From assembly GCA_016865505.2 (NCBI GenBank), contig AP025252.1, positions 868,001 to 932,000 of the forward strand: 64,000 bases of DNA, in the 5' to 3' direction. Origin of the DNA: Bryobacterales bacterium F-183 (GTDB taxonomy: Bacteria > Acidobacteriota > Terriglobia > Bryobacterales > Bryobacteraceae). Positions 1,151-59,440 of this stretch are shown here, piece after piece. The notes beneath the pieces are model-generated. The model had not been told where the DNA came from. It saw only the letters and a program-made list of their open reading frames with translations, and made no database searches. A program made the position numbers and the translations under genes. Numbering within the stretch: the stretch's first letter is position 1; every line of letters begins with the position of its first letter.

Positions 1151-2128
1151 TTGAGCAATCCAGCAAAGCAAGCCGATAATCTGTTGCATCACCCTGACGC
1201 GCGGGCCTTGTCGCTCGACCTGTTGGGGATGTGCCTCGATCTAGCGGGTCTCGTCGATCCCACGCCCACGTCCGACGCAGCAAGCGCCATCCTGTCGCTC
1301 GTGCGTGGCAACTGGCTCGATGCGGCCATCAGCGGCGTCAGCATGGTGCCGTACGTCGGAGACCTGGCCAAGGCCGGCAAGTTCCCGCGCTACCTGCGTA
1401 CGGTAGAGCGCGCCATCAATCTCGCGCGTGAAAGCACCGTAGTCGCCGATGCGTTACGCCCGGTCATGCAGCGGCTGGACCAACTGCTGGACCTTCTGCC
1501 GAGCGGCAGCACCGACGTCCAACGCCTGCACGCCAAAGTACGCCAGTTCCTCACCGAGAATCGCGTCACTCGCGTCGCCGTACGCATCCTGCCGGACATC
1601 AGCCGACACTTCAGCTACCGTCAGTTCACGCATCGCGGCAACACCATCCGCGAGGCTTCGGGCCGCCTCGGCGTACCCGGGCAGGTGATGCAGCATCGCA
1701 GCAGTACTGCCCAGCGCGGTGTATCAAGCGGTACGGGCGACGATGCCGGACACCTCATCGGCAATCGCTTTGGCGCCTCTGGAGGGCCCGAGAATCTATC
1801 GCAACAGAACTGGGTGCAAAATCGCGGCGGTGGTACGTTTCACGATCTAGAGAACGAATGGGCAGCGAGCTTGCACGGCGGCACCGGCATCGTGGCCCGT
1901 GTGCAGGATGTGATGCGTCCCGGCGAAACTCGCCCGTTTATGCGCCGCGTGCAATGGTCCGAGGTGGACTCGGCCGGGCGCATCACGCATCACGAACGCG
2001 TCTTCGCGAATCCACACTCAACGCGAAGCCGGAATGCGCAGGACATCCCCACCGAAGTCTTTCCGCCCGGGCACATCGCCCAGGTCATCGACCTCAACGC
2101 CTTCCGCGCCAGCCGCCACCAGCCCTAG
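1151..2128 (+). CDS. Toxin-like DNA/RNA non-specific endonuclease with pre-toxin region
   Basis: The 325-residue protein has two parts. Residues about 25–90 (LDLLGMCLDLAGLVDP, then VSMVPYVGDLAKAGK) resemble the pre-toxin linkers found ahead of nuclease domains in polymorphic toxins. The C-terminal part carries DDAGHLIGNRFG (D198, H201) followed by PENLSQQN, NRGGGTFHDLENEW and a conserved tail, the pattern of the Endonuclea_NS_2 type of DNA/RNA non-specific nuclease. There is no signal peptide, RHS repeat or other delivery domain, and no neighbouring same-strand gene that could be its immunity protein. The start is TTG at 1151 behind an AGGGCAGG-like ribosome site. Its stop overlaps the convergent gene's stop at 2125–2128. 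The nuclease assignment is good; a toxin role is inferred. Confidence 0.7.
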   Translation: MSNPAKQADNLLHHPDARALSLDLLGMCLDLAGLVDPTPTSDAASAILSLVRGNWLDAAISGVSMVPYVGDLAKAGKFPRYLRTVERAINLARESTVVADALRPVMQRLDQLLDLLPSGSTDVQRLHAKVRQFLTENRVTRVAVRILPDISRHFSYRQFTHRGNTIREASGRLGVPGQVMQHRSSTAQRGVSSGTGDDAGHLIGNRFGASGGPENLSQQNWVQNRGGGTFHDLENEWAASLHGGTGIVARVQDVMRPGETRPFMRRVQWSEVDSAGRITHHERVFANPHSTRSRNAQDIPTEVFPPGHIAQVIDLNAFRASRHQP

Positions 2129-2736
2129 TCGCGCAGCAGCCGGATGGACGCCGGTACCGGTGAGAACAAACGTCCGCGATTGCCGTGAATGGCGATCTCC
2201 ACCGGGAACAAACCGCTAACGCCGTCCACTTGCCCAATATGCGTCACCGTACCTTGCAGCACGGTGTTCGGCTGCATCGTAACCTGCGCGCGCTGCCCTT
2301 CATGCACGTTCGCCAGATCGCCAGCCGTCACGGTAGTATGCGCGGACAGGATGCCCGGGTCCGGCGCGATCCCCAACCGCCCCTGCTCCGCTTGGACCAG
2401 AATCCCGCGTACCGGCGCGCGCACCGCCACACTTGTCACCGACCCCGGATCTGCCGGCGTCGTACCCACCACAGCGCCCGCCGCCACAGGTTCGTTCAGC
2501 TTGGCCACCAGTTGCAGCTTATCGGTGGATACCGGGATCGCCGCGGCCACAGCCGGAATCACGCGGCCTTCCAGCACAATCGGCTGCGGCGATGGATTCG
2601 CTTTCGCCTTCACTTTCTTCACCACCGGAGGATTGTTGCGAGCGTTTGTTGTAGACGGAGAACCGAGAACAGCGAGTAGGGCCGTCAGCCCCAGAGTCGC
2701 TGCCAGAAACCAATTGCGTTGTTGTGCCGCGCTCAT
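2125..2736 (-). CDS. Small HlyD-like membrane-fusion-type protein
   Basis: This is a 203-residue protein with an N-terminal membrane anchor (WFLAATLGLTALLAVLG), a low-complexity KKVKAKANPSPQP linker, and a barrel-sandwich-like region containing VRAPVRGILVQAEQG, followed by a VHEGQRAQVTMQPN beta-barrel-like region. These resemble the lipoyl/barrel parts of HlyD/RND periplasmic adaptor proteins, but the long coiled-coil hairpin is missing and no transporter gene is adjacent. The ATG at 2736 is preferred because it follows an AGCAGGT ribosome site and places the hydrophobic segment at the N-terminus; the frame stays open to 2886. Its substrate and partners cannot be inferred. Confidence 0.55.
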   Translation of the reverse strand: MSAAQQRNWFLAATLGLTALLAVLGSPSTTNARNNPPVVKKVKAKANPSPQPIVLEGRVIPAVAAAIPVSTDKLQLVAKLNEPVAAGAVVGTTPADPGSVTSVAVRAPVRGILVQAEQGRLGIAPDPGILSAHTTVTAGDLANVHEGQRAQVTMQPNTVLQGTVTHIGQVDGVSGLFPVEIAIHGNRGRLFSPVPASIRLLRD

Positions 2737-2884
2737 ACCTGCTAGATCCGTCAGCCAGGACAAATGCTTCGGGTCACCCTGCGGCAAATCGCGCACACCC
2801 AGTAGCGCAGGCGCGTGTAAGTACTGAAAATACAGCACCGGACTACGGTCACACGCGTGCACAGTAATACAGCGGAGGCCCGAC

Positions 2885-22158: not shown

Positions 22159-22704
22159 TTATGCCTCCACTTTCGGGAAGTCTACTACGGTTTTGACAGC
22201 CTCGTTGAAGTAGTTGGTGAGTACGTTGAGGGCGACGTGGGCGATGATCTCGGCGATGGCCGCGTCGTCCCAACCGGCGGCTTTGACCTCCGCGAACGCT
22301 TCGTCGGAGATCTTGCCGCGCATGACGACGAGAGCTTGGGCAAAGCGGAGTCCGGCGTCGATCTTGGGGTCCTGCGGGGAGCGGGCCTGGCGGCTGTCGG
22401 CGATCTCGTCGGGGTTGAGGCCGACCATCTTGCCGATGGTGGAGTGGGCGGAGAGGCAGTAGCTACAGCCGTTGGCCTGCGAGACGGCGAGGGCCAGTTG
22501 TTCGCGGAACTTAGGGTCGAGGACGCCGGTGGAGAGGGCGTTGTTGAAGCTGAGGTAGCCGTCGAGTAGGGCGGGGCTGACGGCCATGGTCCTCATCATG
22601 TTGGGGGCCTTGCCGAACTTGGCTTTGACGGCGTCGAGTAGCTGTTTTGCTTGGCCTTGTGCCTGAGCGGGGTCAATGGCGGGGATGCGTTGTTGGGTTT
22701 GCAT
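22159..22704 (-). CDS. Carboxymuconolactone decarboxylase/AhpD-like peroxidase-related protein
   Basis: The 181-residue protein has the AhpD/CMD fold with the redox motif [11 protein letters not shown], whose two cysteines and histidine match the AhpD catalytic site. It likely reduces peroxides or related electrophiles. ATG 22704 follows AGGAGG at good spacing. It is divergent from the GAF/sigma-54 activator, a common arrangement of regulator and target, and is followed by the DUF1348 gene. The protein at 54804–55403 is a selenocysteine relative in the same superfamily. Confidence 0.88.
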
Positions 22705-22716
22705 GCCTCCTAGGTG

Positions 22717-22732
22717 TGCACGGGTCGCGCCA
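22717..22732 (-). promoter_or_regulatory. Possible sigma-54 –24/–12 promoter before CMD operon
   Basis: The minus strand reads TGGCGCG-N4-GTGCA, close to the sigma-54 consensus TGGCACG-N4-TTGCA with correct GG to GC spacing. It lies opposite a sigma-54 activator gene. However, the predicted transcription start would fall inside the ribosome site of the CMD gene, which weakens the call. Confidence 0.3.
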
Positions 22733-22843
22733 TCTTGCTTTCTGAGTGAAATCAACGCGTTAGATCGACTTGGTAGGTCTCGATATTTCGCGTGTCACGA
22801 TTTTTCAGGAGCTTCTCGCGATATTTTGCGATAGTATGGCGTC

Positions 22844-48674: not shown

Positions 48675-48991
48675 AGAAAACCAGCAAGAAGCAGGCAACC
48701 GTCGGACAAGACATCATCGCCAGTGTGCAGGAAGCCATCGCATGGGCCGAAGGCAAAAGCAGCGACGCGCGCGCGACCCAGGTGGAAGTTCCTCTGGTGG
48801 ACGTACGTAGTTTGCGGCGGAAACTGCGCCTCAGCCAGAGCCAGTTCGCCTTGCGATTCGGCTTTGCCGCCGCTTCCGTCAAGAACTGGGAGCAAGGGCG
48901 CACAAGGCCGGAAGGTCCTGCGCGCGTTTTACTGGCGGTGATTGCAAAGCATCCAGAGGCAGTCGAAGATGCTCTGCGGCGGGCGTCCTAA
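48671..48991 (+). CDS. HigA/Xre-type antitoxin
   Basis: The 106-residue protein has a lysine-rich N-terminus, a linker, and a helix-turn-helix domain (VRSLRRKLRLSQSQFALRFGFAAASVKNWEQGRTRPEGPARVLLAVI), which binds DNA and represses the operon. It is translationally coupled to the RelE-like toxin (ATGA-type overlap). Its 3' end overlaps the convergent Hsp70-like gene's stop by 4 bases. Confidence 0.9.
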   Translation: MKKTSKKQATVGQDIIASVQEAIAWAEGKSSDARATQVEVPLVDVRSLRRKLRLSQSQFALRFGFAAASVKNWEQGRTRPEGPARVLLAVIAKHPEAVEDALRRAS

Positions 48992-50307
48992 GCTTGCCTT
49001 GGACTTGCGGCGTGTAACGCCAAGCCCCTAGCCACGGATGTGAACTCGTTGCCGGATCGGATGCGATCCGCGCCACCGAAGCGGCTTTCAAAGATCCGCC
49101 GTACAGCGGGCACGAACGACGTACCTCCGGTGAGGAACACGCAGTCCACGTCTTTGCCGTCCACCTTGGCGGATTGCAGCAGACCACTCACGGTGTCCTC
49201 GATCTTTCGCAGTTCATCCGAGATCCACTCTTCGAACTCTGCGCGACGGATGATGCTCTGCAACTCGATGCCAGGATCGGCAAAGCGGAACTCCGCTTCA
49301 TCAAACGCCGATAGCGCGACCTTCGTCTTCTGCACGGCGCGATGCAGTCGATAACCCGCGTCGCTATCGATGAGGTGGATCAAAGCGTCGATCTGATCTG
49401 GCTCTAACGACTGCGCCCGTACGCTCTGCAGCAGGTTCGTCACTTCGCGCGTCTTCAGGAACGACAGATGGTGCCAGCGCTCGAGGTTGGCGTACAGCCA
49501 CGTCGGCGCAGGCAGCACCTTGCCTCCCACCGAACGGATGGCCGAGCCTGCGCCAAGCGCCGGCGACACGGCATGCCGGACGATCTTGGCATCGAACGCA
49601 TCACCCGCAAGGCCAAGACCCGCGTTGCCGAGGATGCTCGTACCCTTGGGGCCGACACGCACCAGCGAGAAGTCCGACGTACCGCCGCCGAAGTCGCCGA
49701 TGAGAATCAGTTCTTCATGGTCGAGGGTCGAGGCATAGTATTGCGCGGCAGCGATGGGCTCGAGTTCGAACTGCACGGTCTCAAAGCCCGCCAGCTTGCA
49801 GGCTTCGGCCAGGCGGCCTTCTGCATATGTGTCGCCTTCGTCGTCATTCGATCCCACAAAGCGTACGGGACGGCCAAAGGTGGCAGACGTAACCGGCATA
49901 CCGAACTGCTTTTCCGCCTCCGCGCGAAGGTCAGCCAGGATGCGGGAAATCAACTGTTCGAGCGATCGCTTCTGTCCAAAAACATCCGTGACCTTGAGGC
50001 TCTTGCTGCTCAGGAACGACTTCAACGACTGCATCAGGCGGCCTTGTTCCGGCTCGCGATCGGGATCGAGATACCGTTCGATGCCGAAAGGTCCGCTCCA
50101 GGACTTGAGCGTCAAGCGGCCTTGTTCGCGATGCTGTTCGAGGTACAGCAACGAGCGATAGGATTCCGTCGGATCGCCCAGCAGGGTGAACTGCGCCAGC
50201 CGAAGTCCACCTGCGGGAGTTACGAGAGCAATGGAGCTGTTGGTGGTGCCAAAATCGATACCGATTCCAACGGCATCACGAACTTTCAACGAACGGCTGC
50301 GGCGCAC
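48988..50307 (-). CDS. Hsp70-family actin-like ATPase (YegD-type)
   Basis: The 439-residue protein is an Hsp70 nucleotide-binding domain without a substrate-binding domain: VGIGIDFGTTNSSIAL (phosphate 1), LELEPIAAAQYY-like FELEPIAAAQYYAS (connect), LIGDFGGGTSDFSL (phosphate 2) and VFLTGGTSFVPAVRR (adenosine). This matches the YegD group of short Hsp70 proteins of unknown role. GTG 50307 is used; a TTG at 50328 and a TTG at 50289 are alternatives, none with a clear ribosome site. It follows the TonB receptor gene closely on the same strand. Confidence 0.85.
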   Translation of the reverse strand: MRRSRSLKVRDAVGIGIDFGTTNSSIALVTPAGGLRLAQFTLLGDPTESYRSLLYLEQHREQGRLTLKSWSGPFGIERYLDPDREPEQGRLMQSLKSFLSSKSLKVTDVFGQKRSLEQLISRILADLRAEAEKQFGMPVTSATFGRPVRFVGSNDDEGDTYAEGRLAEACKLAGFETVQFELEPIAAAQYYASTLDHEELILIGDFGGGTSDFSLVRVGPKGTSILGNAGLGLAGDAFDAKIVRHAVSPALGAGSAIRSVGGKVLPAPTWLYANLERWHHLSFLKTREVTNLLQSVRAQSLEPDQIDALIHLIDSDAGYRLHRAVQKTKVALSAFDEAEFRFADPGIELQSIIRRAEFEEWISDELRKIEDTVSGLLQSAKVDGKDVDCVFLTGGTSFVPAVRRIFESRFGGADRIRSGNEFTSVARGLALHAASPRQA

Positions 50308-50331
50308 ACTAACCAGTTTCGCGCACAAACG

Positions 50332-53583: not shown

Positions 53584-54807
53584 TCAATAACTGGAATCTA
53601 CTAATGGCTTGGGTTCGCGCAGCAGCAGCATAAAGATGGCAGAAACCACGGTCAAACCTGCGCCGGCCATCAGCACCAGCGCGTACGAACCCGTCTGATC
53701 AAACACGCGCCCGAAGACGACCGGCCCGGCGGCTCCCGCTAACGCGTAGAACGTCCAGGTGAGCCCGTAGAGGAGCGAAAAATTTAGCAGTCCGAAGTAG
53801 CGCGACAGCAGGTACGGCGTCACATCCGCCTCGCCACCCAGTCCGATGCCGATCAGGATCGCCGACAGAATCGCCACGGGAAGTGATGCTGCCTCGCGAG
53901 CGAACATCATGCCCATGGCCATCAGGATGAGCAACACAAACGATAGCCTGGGGCCCGAGTAACGATCCAGCAGCCAGCCCGTCAGGAATCTGCCAATGAG
54001 GTTCGCGGCACCGAGTAGCCCGGTCACCAAAGCCGCGCTGCCAGGCGTCAGGCCGCGATCGGTAAGGTGCGCCGCCATGTGCGTGAGAGACCCATTGGCC
54101 GCCATCGAACTTAGGAACAGCGTGAGCACCAGGAACCAGAACTCGCGCGACGCCAAAGCCTCACGGACGCTTGCGCCCGGCTTTTCCGGCAAGCTCTTGG
54201 AAGCCACAACGGCGGGCCTGCGGCGTACCCACAGCGCGGTGAGCGGGATGCCGCACACCAGAATCATGCCGCCCAACAGAAGGTACGCCGCCCGCCACCC
54301 GTAGTTGCTGATCATCCATTGGCTCAACAGTGGATGCAGCATCGACCCGACGCCGACGCCGCCCGTCACCAGCGCCAGTGCCACGCCGCGACGTTTGGTG
54401 AACCAACTGGACACCGCGCCGGAGTAGCCCATCTGCGTGGTGGCGTTGGCGAAGAGTCCAATGACAAGCAGCGTGAGATAGAACTGCGCGAGGCTGCCCT
54501 GCAACAGGCTGAGCGCAGCGACGCCGCAGCCGAAGATCACAAAGGCGGGCAGCAGGATCTTGCGCGGCGCCATACGATCGAGCGCGCGGCCCAACAACGG
54601 CGACGCGACCGCTACGCTCAACGCCGCTACCGCGAAGCCTCGCGACGCTTCCTCGCGCGACCATCCGAACTCTGCCGTCAGCGGCTTGAGGAACACGCTG
54701 AACGTGTAGACGAACAGCGACCCAAAGCTCACCATCGCGCCCAATGCGCCTGCAGCCACGACCTTCCAGCCGTGGTACGAGGGCGACGATTCGGACGCGA
54801 CCGTCAC
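53584..54807 (-). CDS. MFS transporter, monocarboxylate/oxalate-type
   Basis: The 407-residue protein has twelve transmembrane helices. It starts with SPSYHGWKVVAAGALGAMVSFGSLFVYTFSVFLKPLTAEFGWSREEAS, the signature of the oxalate:formate antiporter/monocarboxylate branch, and has LLGRALDRMAPRKILL between helices 2 and 3. The GTG start at 54807 overlaps the stop of the selenoprotein gene (GTGA), so expression is coupled. A small organic acid is the likely cargo. Confidence 0.88.
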   Translation of the reverse strand: MTVASESSPSYHGWKVVAAGALGAMVSFGSLFVYTFSVFLKPLTAEFGWSREEASRGFAVAALSVAVASPLLGRALDRMAPRKILLPAFVIFGCGVAALSLLQGSLAQFYLTLLVIGLFANATTQMGYSGAVSSWFTKRRGVALALVTGGVGVGSMLHPLLSQWMISNYGWRAAYLLLGGMILVCGIPLTALWVRRRPAVVASKSLPEKPGASVREALASREFWFLVLTLFLSSMAANGSLTHMAAHLTDRGLTPGSAALVTGLLGAANLIGRFLTGWLLDRYSGPRLSFVLLILMAMGMMFAREAASLPVAILSAILIGIGLGGEADVTPYLLSRYFGLLNFSLLYGLTWTFYALAGAAGPVVFGRVFDQTGSYALVLMAGAGLTVVSAIFMLLLREPKPLVDSSY

Positions 54808-55403
54808 TTGCGTACGTACCCCACCGTGGCGCTGCGCTTGCCGCCTTCGCGATGCGCCTCTTCACACATGGGATGTACACCGGTGGCGTCAATCCAACGG
54901 TTGTAGAAATTGAAGAGAGCGCACACCGTGATGGCGTAGAAAATCTGTTCGTCGTTCCAGCCCGCCGCGTACAGAGGCTGCATGTCGTCCGGCGTGATCT
55001 CCGGCGAGTTCAGGTTGACCCTGTCGACAAAACGCAGCAGCACCTTTTCGGGCTCCGTCAAAGAGGAGGACTCCATGTCCTGCATCACCTCGCGCACCAA
55101 CGCTTCGTTCTGCAGCAATTCCGCCGCGACCGCGGCGTGCGAGTTGGTTCAAAACGGGCAGTGATTGCGGCGCGACGTATAGGCTGCGATGAGTTCGCGC
55201 AACCCCGGCGTCAGCGGCGCTTCTTCGCGCATGATCTCCTGCGTGAACCGCGCCAGATGCTCACCGGCGGTGGGTTTGAAGGCAAACAGATGCCAGATCT
55301 GCGGGTACTCTTTGCCCTGTCGCTTCATGCCGTCGATCGCGGTCGAGTAGGGCGATGGCTTGGGGTCGTTCTCGACACCCGGCAGGAACATCGGCTTCAT
55401 CAT
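54804..55403 (-). CDS. Selenocysteine-containing CMD/AhpD-like protein
   Basis: The frame is open from ATG 55403 to TGA 54804 apart from one in-frame TGA at 55149–55151. The protein of 199 residues begins MMKPMFLPGVEND and contains FKPTAGEHLARFTQEIM, LTPGLRELIAAYTSRRNHCPF, then the TGA, then TNSHAAVAAELLQNEALV and a CMD-like C-terminus. The TGA occupies the second cysteine of the CxxC redox motif seen in AhpD-like proteins, giving Cys82-Pro-Phe-Sec85. A SECIS-like hairpin follows the TGA. AhpD-type selenoproteins with CxxU motifs are known. It likely reduces a peroxide or disulfide, and precedes the MFS gene with a GTGA overlap. Confidence 0.82.
55122..55151 (-). promoter_or_regulatory. Bacterial SECIS-like element at the in-frame TGA
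   Basis: On the minus strand the TGA at 55149–55151 is followed after 17 bases by a perfect hairpin: CGCCGC (55132–55137), loop GGTC (55128–55131) and GCGGCG (55122–55127). Bacterial SECIS elements have an apical loop starting with G, often GGU, placed 16–37 bases after the UGA. This one fits, supporting selenocysteine insertion by SelB. Confidence 0.75.
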
Positions 55404-55464: not shown

Positions 55465-55495
55465 CGAAAGGCGCTCCATGGTGGGAGCGCCCTTT
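55465..55495 (-). terminator. Terminator of the 2-oxoglutarate decarboxylase gene
   Basis: GGCGCTCC and GGAGCGCC (55470–55477 and 55484–55491) form an 8-bp stem with a 6-base loop. On the minus strand a short T-rich run (TTTCGCTTT) follows, 20 bases after the stop of the fused decarboxylase at 55517. Confidence 0.7.
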
Positions 55496-55516: not shown

Positions 55517-58500
55517 CTACTTCTTGGCCTTCTTCAACCGCACCGGCACGCGGCGACGGCGGACGATCGGAGCGGGCGAGAACGCATCCTCGATCACGTC
55601 CAACTGTTCCTGCGTATGCCGCTTCAGCGAACCTGCAGCGGGGCTGGCCGATTCCGGACGTCCCACATAGCGCAAGGTGCGACGGGTCGGTTCCAGCAGC
55701 GGCTGGATCTGGTCGTGCATGAACCGCCACGGTCCATAGTTCTTCGACTCTTCCTGCACCCAGCAGACTTCCGCCGTAAACGGATACCGCGACAGAATCG
55801 CCGAGAAGTCGGCGGCGGCAAACGGGTACAGCTGTTCGACGCGCAGGATTGCCACGTTCTGCAAACCGCGCTTTTCGCGCTCGGCTGCGAGTTCGTAGAA
55901 GATCTTGCCCGAACAGATCAGCACACGATTGACGCGGCTGGTGTCCAGGTTCGCTGGATCCGACAGGATCTCCTTGAAGTTGCCACGCGTGAACTCCGAG
56001 AGCGGCGACACAGCCTTGGGGCTGCGCAGGATGCTCTTGGGCGTCATGATGATCAGCGGCTTGCGCGTACCGCGACGGTCGTTGCCACCGTGGATCTGAC
56101 GGCGCAGGATGTGGAAGTACTGCGCGGGCGTCGTGCAGTTGGCCACAATCATGTTGTCTTCGGCGCACAACTGAAGGAAGCGTTCCATGCGGGCCGATGA
56201 GTGTTCCGGACCCTGACCTTCCTGGCCGTGCGGCAACAGCAGTACCAAGCCCGAAGGCTGGCCCCACTTCGATTCTGCGCTCGAAATGAACTGGTCGATC
56301 ATGATCTGCGCGCCGTTGACGAAGTCGCCAAACTGGGCTTCCCACATCACCAGAGCGAGCGGATCGGCCACTGAGTAGCCGAACTCAAAGCCCATCACCG
56401 CGTACTCGGACAGGGACGAATCCCACACTTCAAAGCGTGCCTGATCCGGCGCCAGATGCTTCATCGGCACATGCTGCTTGCCGGTTTCGTAATCGTACAG
56501 TTCCAGGTGACGCTGGCTGAACGTACCGCGGCCGACGTCCTGACCGGACAACCGAACCGGCGTACCTTCGAGCACCAGCGAACCAAACGCCAGCGCTTCC
56601 GCCGTCGCCCAATCGAGCGCGCCGCCTTCGGTGGGAATTTCCTTCACCAACTCGCGACGCTTGTCCAAAAAGCCCTTCAGCTTGGGATGCGGCTTGAACC
56701 CTTCCGGATAGGACGTGATACCCGTCAACACGCGTTCAATGGTGACGCCGTCGATGGTGGTCTGCGGGCGGAGCTTCGGAAGGTCGTCCGCATTGATCGG
56801 CGTCACTTCCTGCAGTTCGTATTCGGTCTTGTTGCGCTGCGCCTCGTCATAAACAAGGTTCAGCTTTTCCACCACGCGCTTCTGAATGGCTTCCACTTCC
56901 GCCTTGGTGAAGACTTTTTCGCGAACCAGGCGTTCGGTGTACTGCTTGACCACCGACTCCTGCTCCTTGATCTTCTTGTACATCAGCGGCTGCGTGTACG
57001 AAGGATCGTCCGTCTCGTTATGACCATGCTTGCGATAGCAGATCATGTCGATGACAACGTCCTTCTTAAACTGCTGGCGGAAGTCGTAGGCCAACTGGAT
57101 GACGCGGATGCAAGCTTCCGGATCGTCGCCGTTGACGTGGAAAATCGGTGCCTGCACTGTACGCGCGACGTCCGTACAGTACGTCGATGAGCGGGACTCA
57201 ATCGGGTTGGTGGTGAAGCCGATCTGGTTGTTGATCACCAGGTGGATCGTGCCGCCGGTCGAATAGCCTTCGAGCTGCGAGAGGTTGAGCGTTTCCGCCA
57301 CCACACCCTGGCCGGCAAACGCCGCGTCGCCGTGGATCAACACGGGGATGACGCGTTCGCGCTTGGTGTCGCCCAGGCGATCCTGCTTGGGACGTACGAT
57401 GCCTTCCACCACAGGGTTTACAGCTTCGAGGTGCGACGGGTTGAACGCGACCGACACCGTGATTTCACGGCCCTGCGAACTGCGGCGGACACCGGTAGCG
57501 CCCAGGTGGTACTTCACGTCGCCCGAACCCTGGATGGAGTCCGGATCGACATCGCCTTCAAACTCGCCAAACAACTGCTGCATGCTCTTGCCCACCACTT
57601 GGGTGAGCACGGTGAGGCGGCCGCGATGGGCCATGCCGATCACCGCTTCATGCACCTTGGAATTGGCAGCGCGCTCGAGCAACTCGTCGAGGACGGCGAC
57701 CGTGGATTCGCCGCCTTCCACCGAGAAGCGCTTGGCGCCCTTGAAGCGGTTGTCCAAAAAGCGCTCGAACTCTTCCGCGTCAATCAACCGTTCGGCGATG
57801 CGGCGCTGCGTTTCCGGCTCCAGCTTCCACAGGTTGGCCGTGGGTTCCATGCGGGATTGCAGCCACTGCTTTTCCGCTGGATGCTGAATCATCATGTACT
57901 CGCAACCGATGCGCGCGCAGTACGTTTGACGCAGCGTATCCAGGATCTCGCGCAACGTCAGCACAGGACCGCGGCCGAGCACGCCACCGGCGTAGAACGG
58001 ACGATCCAGATCCCAAATCGACAGGCCGTAGCTCGAGGGGTCGAGCTCCGGATGATACAGCGGTTCGTGGCCGAGCGGATCGGTATTGGCGATCAGGTGG
58101 CCGCGTACGCGATAGGCGTGGATCAACTGCGATACCGCAAGTTCCTTCTGTACATCGGCGGCGGAAGACGAAGCCGTTGGCAGCGCCGCCTGCAGAGGCA
58201 GCAACGCATTGGGAGCCTGCTTGCTCGCGTCTTCAAACTTTACCGGCTGATAGGGAATGTGCAGGTCGCGGAAGATGTTCTCGTAGAACAAATCCGCCCC
58301 ATCGAGCAGTTCCTGTACGCGAGCCAGGAACATGCCGGATTCGGCGCCCTGGATGACGCGATGGTCGTACGTACACGTCATGCCCATCACTTTGGTGATG
58401 CCGAGCATGGCGCGAACCTGTTCGGTAACGCCGGAAAACTCCGCCGGATAATCGATGGCGCCGGTAGCGATGATCGCGCCCTGGCCAGGCATCAGGCGCG

Positions 58501-59440
58501 GCACGGAGGACACCGTACCGACCGTGCCCGGGTTGGTCAAAGAAAGCGTTGTGCCCTGGAAGTCCGGCACGGTCAGCTTGCCGTTGCGGGCGCGCACCAC
58601 GATGTCGTCATAGGCGGCCAAAAACTGCGCAAAATCGAGCGTGTCGGCCTTCTTGATGTTCGGCACCATCAGAGACCGGTTGCCGTCCTTGCCGGCGACG
58701 TCCACTGCAAGGCCGATGTTGACGTGCTGGTGGACGACGCGGAAGCCTTGTCCGTCCTTTTCCGTAAACGCGGTGTTGATGGACGGGATCTTTTCGCAGG
58801 CCTTGATGAGTGCGTAGGCGATGAGGTGCGTGTACGACACCTTGCTCTTGCCCGCGAGCGACCGCTGCTGGTTGATCAGGCGGCGATTCTCGTCAATCAG
58901 CTTGACTGGAAGAATACGTTGCGACGTCGCCGTGGGAATCTGCAGGCTGATCGTCATGTTTTCCGCAATGCGGGCGGCAGCGCCCTTGAGCGGAACCAGA
59001 TTGTCGCCGGACTTGGCCTCGCCCGTACCTTCCTGCTTCACGGGCGCCTGTTCGGGAGCCGTAATGCGGGCGGCTTGCGGAGCCTCGGGCGACGGAGCGG
59101 GAATCGTGCCTGCGGGGGCAGGGGTCGGCGACACGCGCGAAGGCGTTTGCGCAGTGTTGTCGTGTGCGGAGTCCGCGTTCAAAACTGGAGAGCTAACCGG
59201 CGCGGCAGGCGCCGGAGCGGAGGCAGCAGGCGTCAACGGTTCCAGCTTGGCCGCAAAAGCGCTGCCGTTCTTCCCGCCACCGTTCGTGCCGTTCGTTTCG
59301 CCGTTGGCGGTCTCGAACTGAGTTTTCCAGGCTTCGTCAATGCCCGTCCGGTCGTGACGATATTGTTGGTACAGCTCTTCTTCTAGCCAACTGTTGATGC
59401 TAGCGGCTGAGCCCGGCTTGGGGCTGGCGGGGGAGGACAT
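55517..59440 (-). CDS. kgd: Fused 2-oxoglutarate dehydrogenase E2o/E1o (alpha-ketoglutarate decarboxylase type)
   Basis: The 1307-residue enzyme joins a dihydrolipoyl succinyltransferase catalytic domain (about residues 125–390, including TYDHRVIQGAESGMFLARVQELL with the catalytic His) to a full thiamin-dependent E1o. The E1o part has IHGDAAFAGQGVVAETLNLSQLEGY, VINNQIGF and PRLMPGQGAIIATG in the E2 part. The extreme N-terminus matches the E1o/E2o docking segment (INSWLEEELYQQYRHDRTGIDEAWK). The lipoyl domain is absent. This architecture is the actinobacterial OdhA/Kgd type and converts 2-oxoglutarate in the TCA cycle. Confidence 0.93.
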   Translation of the reverse strand: MSSPASPKPGSAASINSWLEEELYQQYRHDRTGIDEAWKTQFETANGETNGTNGGGKNGSAFAAKLEPLTPAASAPAPAAPVSSPVLNADSAHDNTAQTPSRVSPTPAPAGTIPAPSPEAPQAARITAPEQAPVKQEGTGEAKSGDNLVPLKGAAARIAENMTISLQIPTATSQRILPVKLIDENRRLINQQRSLAGKSKVSYTHLIAYALIKACEKIPSINTAFTEKDGQGFRVVHQHVNIGLAVDVAGKDGNRSLMVPNIKKADTLDFAQFLAAYDDIVVRARNGKLTVPDFQGTTLSLTNPGTVGTVSSVPRLMPGQGAIIATGAIDYPAEFSGVTEQVRAMLGITKVMGMTCTYDHRVIQGAESGMFLARVQELLDGADLFYENIFRDLHIPYQPVKFEDASKQAPNALLPLQAALPTASSSAADVQKELAVSQLIHAYRVRGHLIANTDPLGHEPLYHPELDPSSYGLSIWDLDRPFYAGGVLGRGPVLTLREILDTLRQTYCARIGCEYMMIQHPAEKQWLQSRMEPTANLWKLEPETQRRIAERLIDAEEFERFLDNRFKGAKRFSVEGGESTVAVLDELLERAANSKVHEAVIGMAHRGRLTVLTQVVGKSMQQLFGEFEGDVDPDSIQGSGDVKYHLGATGVRRSSQGREITVSVAFNPSHLEAVNPVVEGIVRPKQDRLGDTKRERVIPVLIHGDAAFAGQGVVAETLNLSQLEGYSTGGTIHLVINNQIGFTTNPIESRSSTYCTDVARTVQAPIFHVNGDDPEACIRVIQLAYDFRQQFKKDVVIDMICYRKHGHNETDDPSYTQPLMYKKIKEQESVVKQYTERLVREKVFTKAEVEAIQKRVVEKLNLVYDEAQRNKTEYELQEVTPINADDLPKLRPQTTIDGVTIERVLTGITSYPEGFKPHPKLKGFLDKRRELVKEIPTEGGALDWATAEALAFGSLVLEGTPVRLSGQDVGRGTFSQRHLELYDYETGKQHVPMKHLAPDQARFEVWDSSLSEYAVMGFEFGYSVADPLALVMWEAQFGDFVNGAQIMIDQFISSAESKWGQPSGLVLLLPHGQEGQGPEHSSARMERFLQLCAEDNMIVANCTTPAQYFHILRRQIHGGNDRRGTRKPLIIMTPKSILRSPKAVSPLSEFTRGNFKEILSDPANLDTSRVNRVLICSGKIFYELAAEREKRGLQNVAILRVEQLYPFAAADFSAILSRYPFTAEVCWVQEESKNYGPWRFMHDQIQPLLEPTRRTLRYVGRPESASPAAGSLKRHTQEQLDVIEDAFSPAPIVRRRRVPVRLKKAKK

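Follow-up and report, generated by a model that had tools for sequence, protein, structure and literature searches.

A predicted AhpD-like selenoprotein gene with a C-P-F-U active-site motif in a Bryobacteraceae-type acidobacterium

The window, i.e. the whole 64,000-nucleotide stretch of DNA analyzed here, very probably carries on its minus strand a gene for an AhpD-like, TIGR01926 (peroxidase-related) selenoprotein, in which Sec85 would be inserted at a UGA by means of a hairpin and would act in a thiol/selenol oxidoreductase of the AhpD fold. What was computed directly comprises the reading frame with its conserved TGA, the genomic Sec machinery, selection on the hairpin at the RNA level, and the protein's family, fold and conserved relay residues. 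We infer from the sequences that UGA codon 85 is almost certainly read as selenocysteine (Sec). The features referred to below are as follows.

54804..55403, minus strand: predicted Sec-containing AhpD-like (TIGR01926 peroxidase-related) gene, start at ATG 55403 or 55400
55149..55151, minus strand: in-frame TGA, codon 85, predicted Sec (80 distinct full-length homologues: 68 with TGA, 12 with Cys)
55122..55137, minus strand: putative apical hairpin of a bacterial SECIS, with 6 bp, a GGUC loop (55131-55128) and covariation
55158..55160, minus strand: codon of Cys82, first residue of CxxU, invariant
55137..55139, minus strand: invariant codon of His89, which matches His137 of M. tuberculosis AhpD (PMC3141380)
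55194..55196, minus strand: codon of Glu70, equivalent of AhpD Glu118, invariant (PMC3141380)
53584..54807, minus strand: MFS transporter gene, GTGA overlap with the stop of the Sec gene, neighbor at 27 homologous loci

Reading frame and conservation of the in-frame TGA

The gene runs from 55403 to 54804 and specifies 199 residues, Sec85 included; the initial annotation had given its coordinates (54804-55403) correctly and had omitted the strand. Translation bore out the single continuous frame described there: it is open from the ATG at 55403 to the TGA at 54806-54804, no frameshift is present, and the lone in-frame TGA (55151–55149) is codon 85, immediately after C-P-F. The active-site motif is NHC82-P-F-U85-TNS-H89 (C82-P-F-U85-x3-H89). 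A second ATG is located at 55400, and this start is better supported than that at 55403: of the 67 homologues that reach that far, 65 have ATG at the aligned codon. Under ordinary ORF calling the gene comes out split or truncated, as had been expected of standard gene callers: the C-terminal part was returned as a 104-aa ORF with a TTG start (54804-55118), and the N-terminal part was hidden inside a spurious 398-aa ORF.

Sixty relatives and a species-genome collection were searched for homologues, and 80 distinct full-length sequences were obtained from Acidobacteriota, Gemmatimonadota, Myxococcota and Planctomycetota. Codon 85 was TGA in 68 of these, Cys (TGC or TGT) in 12, and nothing else in any of them, which upholds the earlier placement of the TGA at the second Cys of a CxxC motif. 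The two most divergent Cys sequences, second copies in L091 and L108, are paralogues; without them, 10 Cys orthologues are left. The terminal stops of the homologues are mixed (TGA, 35; TAG, 32; TAA, 14); therefore, the TGA-only rule is particular to the active-site codon.

These data bear on two other accounts of the TGA. According to the first, it is a nonsense mutation, real or artefactual, in a Cys gene, i.e. the locus is a pseudogene or contains a sequencing error. The truncation of the frame by standard gene callers is the only point in favor of this account, which we regard as exceedingly improbable and rejected because the TGA is conserved in related species: 68 distinct genes from several phyla share the codon, purifying selection is evident on both sides of it, and the hairpin described below is under selection at the RNA level. 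When the window gene was compared with its relatives, dN was mostly 0.1–0.2 of dS on either side of the TGA; for the congener, dN/dS was 0.078/0.57 before the TGA and 0.105/1.03 after it. An assembly error at this codon is very unlikely because 67 further genes carry the TGA. According to the second account, the TGA is recoded by other means, such as a reassigned code or SECIS-independent readthrough that inserts Trp or another residue. Nothing specific was found in its favor, and it is scarcely credible, given that homologues lacking the TGA have Cys and never Trp at codon 85 and that the genome holds a complete Sec trait. Moreover, an alternative genetic code was rejected because TGA is a genuine terminal stop in the window gene and in 35 homologues, where others have TAA or TAG.

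Selenocysteine machinery and the SECIS hairpin

The initial annotation had noted that the absence of selB or selC from the genome, or homologues with neither Cys nor Sec at the TGA position, would argue for a pseudogene, and had proposed a genome search and an alignment; neither circumstance was encountered, and the selenoprotein interpretation given there is upheld. The genome search returned tRNA-Sec(UCA) (74.9 bits; gathering score, 47), SelB (387 bits; cut-off, 242), SelA (456 bits; cut-off, 268) and SelD (374 bits; cut-off, 125), all above curated cut-offs. ARAGORN agreed on the tRNA (tRNA-SeC, anticodon tca).

The distribution of the two forms across species was used as a control. The set included nine genomes having only the Cys form (L091, L094, L096-L099, L101, L103 and L108); these were searched for selA and tRNA-Sec, and neither was found in any. 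Of the 10 Cys-form orthologue loci, nine reside in genomes that lack selA and tRNA-Sec. The opposite exception is L049 in G044, where selA accompanies a Cys form. Among the 14 TGA-form genomes tested alongside, selA was detected in 12 and tRNA-Sec in the remaining 2. The TGA form is held by 26 members of the 61-genome set, and selA was above the cut-off in 24 of them. In G007 selA is broken across contig ends, and G031 has tRNA-Sec with no selA match; all three TGA-form genomes without a selA match have tRNA-Sec. One TGA copy and one Cys copy are present in each of G015 and G031.

The hairpin at 55137-55122 (C-GCCGC-GGUC-GCGGC-G) comprises six perfect pairs and a GGUC loop, and the UGA-to-loop spacing is 17 nt; a perfect hairpin with this loop had been annotated originally. 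In bacterial SECIS elements this distance is 16-37 nt (PMC10778597), and a G is located in a small apical loop (PMC1088965); here, G occupies loop position 2 in all 68 Sec genes. The loops of these genes were GGUC (45), AGUU (17), CGGU (3), AGGU (2) and GGGU (1). The SECIS of E. coli fdhF also has a GGUC apical loop, the G and U of which contact SelB.

In the fold test that had been suggested, a hairpin was predicted, and its loop shows compensatory change, but the folding energy alone was not exceptional. Compared to shuffled sequences, z ranged from -0.6 to -1.6, no better than expected of GC-rich sequence, and synonymous resampling resulted in a mean z of -0.83 in the Sec genes and of -0.24 in the Cys genes. 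Energy was not significant and was dropped as evidence.

The comparative evidence, rather than energy, argues decisively for the putative SECIS. The outer loop bases fall at synonymous third positions of Ala codon 91 and Val codon 92. GCG was always accompanied by GTC and GCA always by GTT (62 of 62 genes in which codon 92 is Val; no mixed cases), with a coupling of about 0.17 per gene expected by chance from these genes' own codon usage. On a tree built without the loop-coding columns, 11 changes were counted for each trait, and the seven well-supported independent pairs were all coupled (sign test, p 0.016). When pairs were counted, 95% of the cells were paired and 17 double changes were present, more than in any of 500 shuffles. 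Third-base entropy in the Sec genes was 0.3-1.1 bits in codons 90-94, compared to values typically of 1.3-1.7 elsewhere. Neither this extra silent-site conservation nor the coupled-loop signature was found in the Cys genes. The stem is weakened in one homologue (L058).

A search of the locus against Rfam returned no matches. When a SECIS model was run over the genome, only the AhpD-like locus scored strongly (61.3 bits); none of the five weak matches (best E, 0.2) had a convincing Sec frame.

Family, fold and predicted activity

The assignment to an AhpD-like domain made in the initial annotation is supported by family models and by the fold. The protein scored above the cut-offs of TIGR01926 (95.9 bits; cut-off, 81.8) and PF02627 (33.6 bits; cut-off, 23). 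It fell below those of the (seleno)protein models NF041238 (AhpD_rel_CFYUT; 43.5 bits vs. 175), NF053654 (YciW-related; 26.8 bits vs. 310) and NF041047, and in this it is distinct from the proteins that those NCBIfam models describe. The AF2 (AlphaFold) model (mean pLDDT, 96.5; pTM, 0.92) and the alignment have the all-helical AhpD fold with CxxC/U and a following His. Over its whole length (183-185 residues), the model matched the peroxidase-related AhpD-core structures 6k40, 2prr, 2oyo, 3c1l and 2pfx at Z 20-22; sequence matches to such structures had E values from 1e-10 to 6e-16. Those with printed alignments differ from the window protein in being Cys enzymes.

The fold is shared with M. 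tuberculosis AhpD (Cys130/Cys133), although identity is 13% and Z about 10. The AhpD proton relay is Glu118-Cys130-His132-Cys133-His137 (PMC3141380). Judged by motif spacing, four of these five positions have counterparts: Glu118, Cys130, Cys133 and His137 correspond to Glu70, Cys82, Sec85 and His89. The window protein differs in having Sec for Cys133, Phe84 for His132 and helices ordered differently around the motif. Conservation of His132 among AhpDs is not absolute, and 2GMY has Phe there (PMC3141380). E70, C82, U/C85 and H89 are invariant in 35 homologues and paralogues.

A mechanism can be proposed on this basis. SelB carrying Sec-tRNA-Sec would bind the hairpin just 3' of the UGA, placing Sec at residue 85. 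Sec85 would take the place of the Cys133-type residue of AhpD, with Cys82 as its selenenylsulfide partner and Glu70 and His89 as the proton relay. The Sec85 selenolate may then attack a peroxide-like substrate, Cys82 may resolve the selenenic acid that results, and the Cys82/Sec85 pair may be restored by a cellular dithiol system. The substrate reduced is most likely a hydroperoxide or a related oxidized compound; peroxidase activity is a prediction.

The MFS gene downstream starts with GTG at 54807, within the GTGA overlap with the Sec gene's stop, as reported initially. The transporter is monocarboxylate/oxalate-formate-like, matching L-lactate/oxalate-formate models below their specific cut-offs. 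It adjoins at 27 homologous loci including the window's, those of Cys form among them, which suggests a shared pathway; we infer a functional link between the two genes. Beyond the MFS gene, nothing consistent was shared among neighbors in other phyla.

This neighbor is relevant to a different view of the substrate. The protein could be a selenoprotein and yet not a peroxidase, i.e. an AhpD-fold selenol reductase with another task (for example, reductive dehalogenation, as in Bmp8, or service as a thiol-disulfide adaptor), whose substrate or product would be carried by the MFS protein. The conserved pairing with a transporter of a carboxylate-type branch is consistent with this possibility, as is the breadth of the AhpD fold, which also includes the sestrins and the debrominase Bmp8 (Z 16 in the fold list). 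However, the similarity to the peroxidase-related proteins is greater (TIGR01926; Z 20-22), and the AhpD relay residues are intact except for the His132-to-Phe84 change. We consider this view possible but unlikely. A narrower proposal, that the CPFU clade is a distinct AhpD-fold selenoenzyme that acts with the MFS transporter on a particular carboxylate or halogenated substrate and is not a general peroxidase, is doubtful. The hydroperoxide-reducing selenoenzyme is the reading preferred here.

Known relatives and gene surroundings

AhpD-like CxxU selenoproteins (COG2128/TIGR01926) are, as had been stated, an established class: 27 sequences were predicted in the Sargasso Sea study of 2005 (PMC1088965), they were counted by hundreds in GOS (PMC2398784), and the family is contained in later catalogues (PMC2398784, PMC9312934, PMC13188914), the current one listing it as TIGR01926, CxxU (PMC13188914). 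A few selenoproteins were already known in Acidobacteria (PMC1794560). A literature search for an AhpD-like CxxU gene in Bryobacteraceae found no paper. The window gene shares with the known family its model, the CxxU motif with Sec second and a bacterial SECIS just after the UGA; it differs in its host, a Bryobacteraceae-type acidobacterium, and in belonging to a CPFU clade that has a uniform xGUy apical loop and is often MFS-paired. That it adds one member to an already predicted class is well supported. The gene provides firm evidence that Bryobacteraceae-type Acidobacteriota use Sec, and that Gemmatimonadota, Myxococcota and Planctomycetota do so as well. With its coupled synonymous switches in the loop and its division into Sec and Cys forms that goes with loss of the Sec trait, the family offers a natural and clean case on which to test SECIS prediction and the replacement of Sec by Cys. 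No phage copies of the gene were found.

Several related genes were observed. A second CMD/AhpD-family gene of the window (22159-22755, minus strand; PF02627, 56.1 bits) carries a conventional Cys-S-Y-Cys motif without a TGA; the genome thus uses the Cys form as well as the Sec form. A different AhpD-like TGA gene, with C-H-Y-U and about 30% identity, occurs in L052 (1570-1935), L053 (1486-1938) and several other genomes of the same order, and is probably another AhpD-like selenoprotein subfamily. One to three tandem Cys-type CMD paralogues (CYFCQ/CYYCQ) lie beside the Sec or Cys gene, upstream in L078, L087, L094, L098 and L108 and downstream in L091, L099 and L101.

Upstream of the Sec gene, a multifunctional KGD-type 2-oxoglutarate dehydrogenase is encoded at 55517-59440 (minus strand; NF008907, 1734.9 bits), and a terminator-like hairpin with a T run (55470-55491) follows its end, between the genes. 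M. tuberculosis AhpD is served by the 2-oxoglutarate dehydrogenase complex. A link to the adjacent dehydrogenase was considered here and rejected, as the two genes were seen to adjoin only within the genus and the terminator-like site separates them. HSP70-family proteins are encoded near the Sec gene in the window (48988-50328, minus strand) and in L071 (3669-5234, plus strand), which may be coincidence. Close to the Cys-form gene of L099, a T4_deiodinase-domain protein is encoded at 2126-2839 (minus strand; PF00837, 136.8 bits); deiodinase-like proteins are a Sec-prone family.
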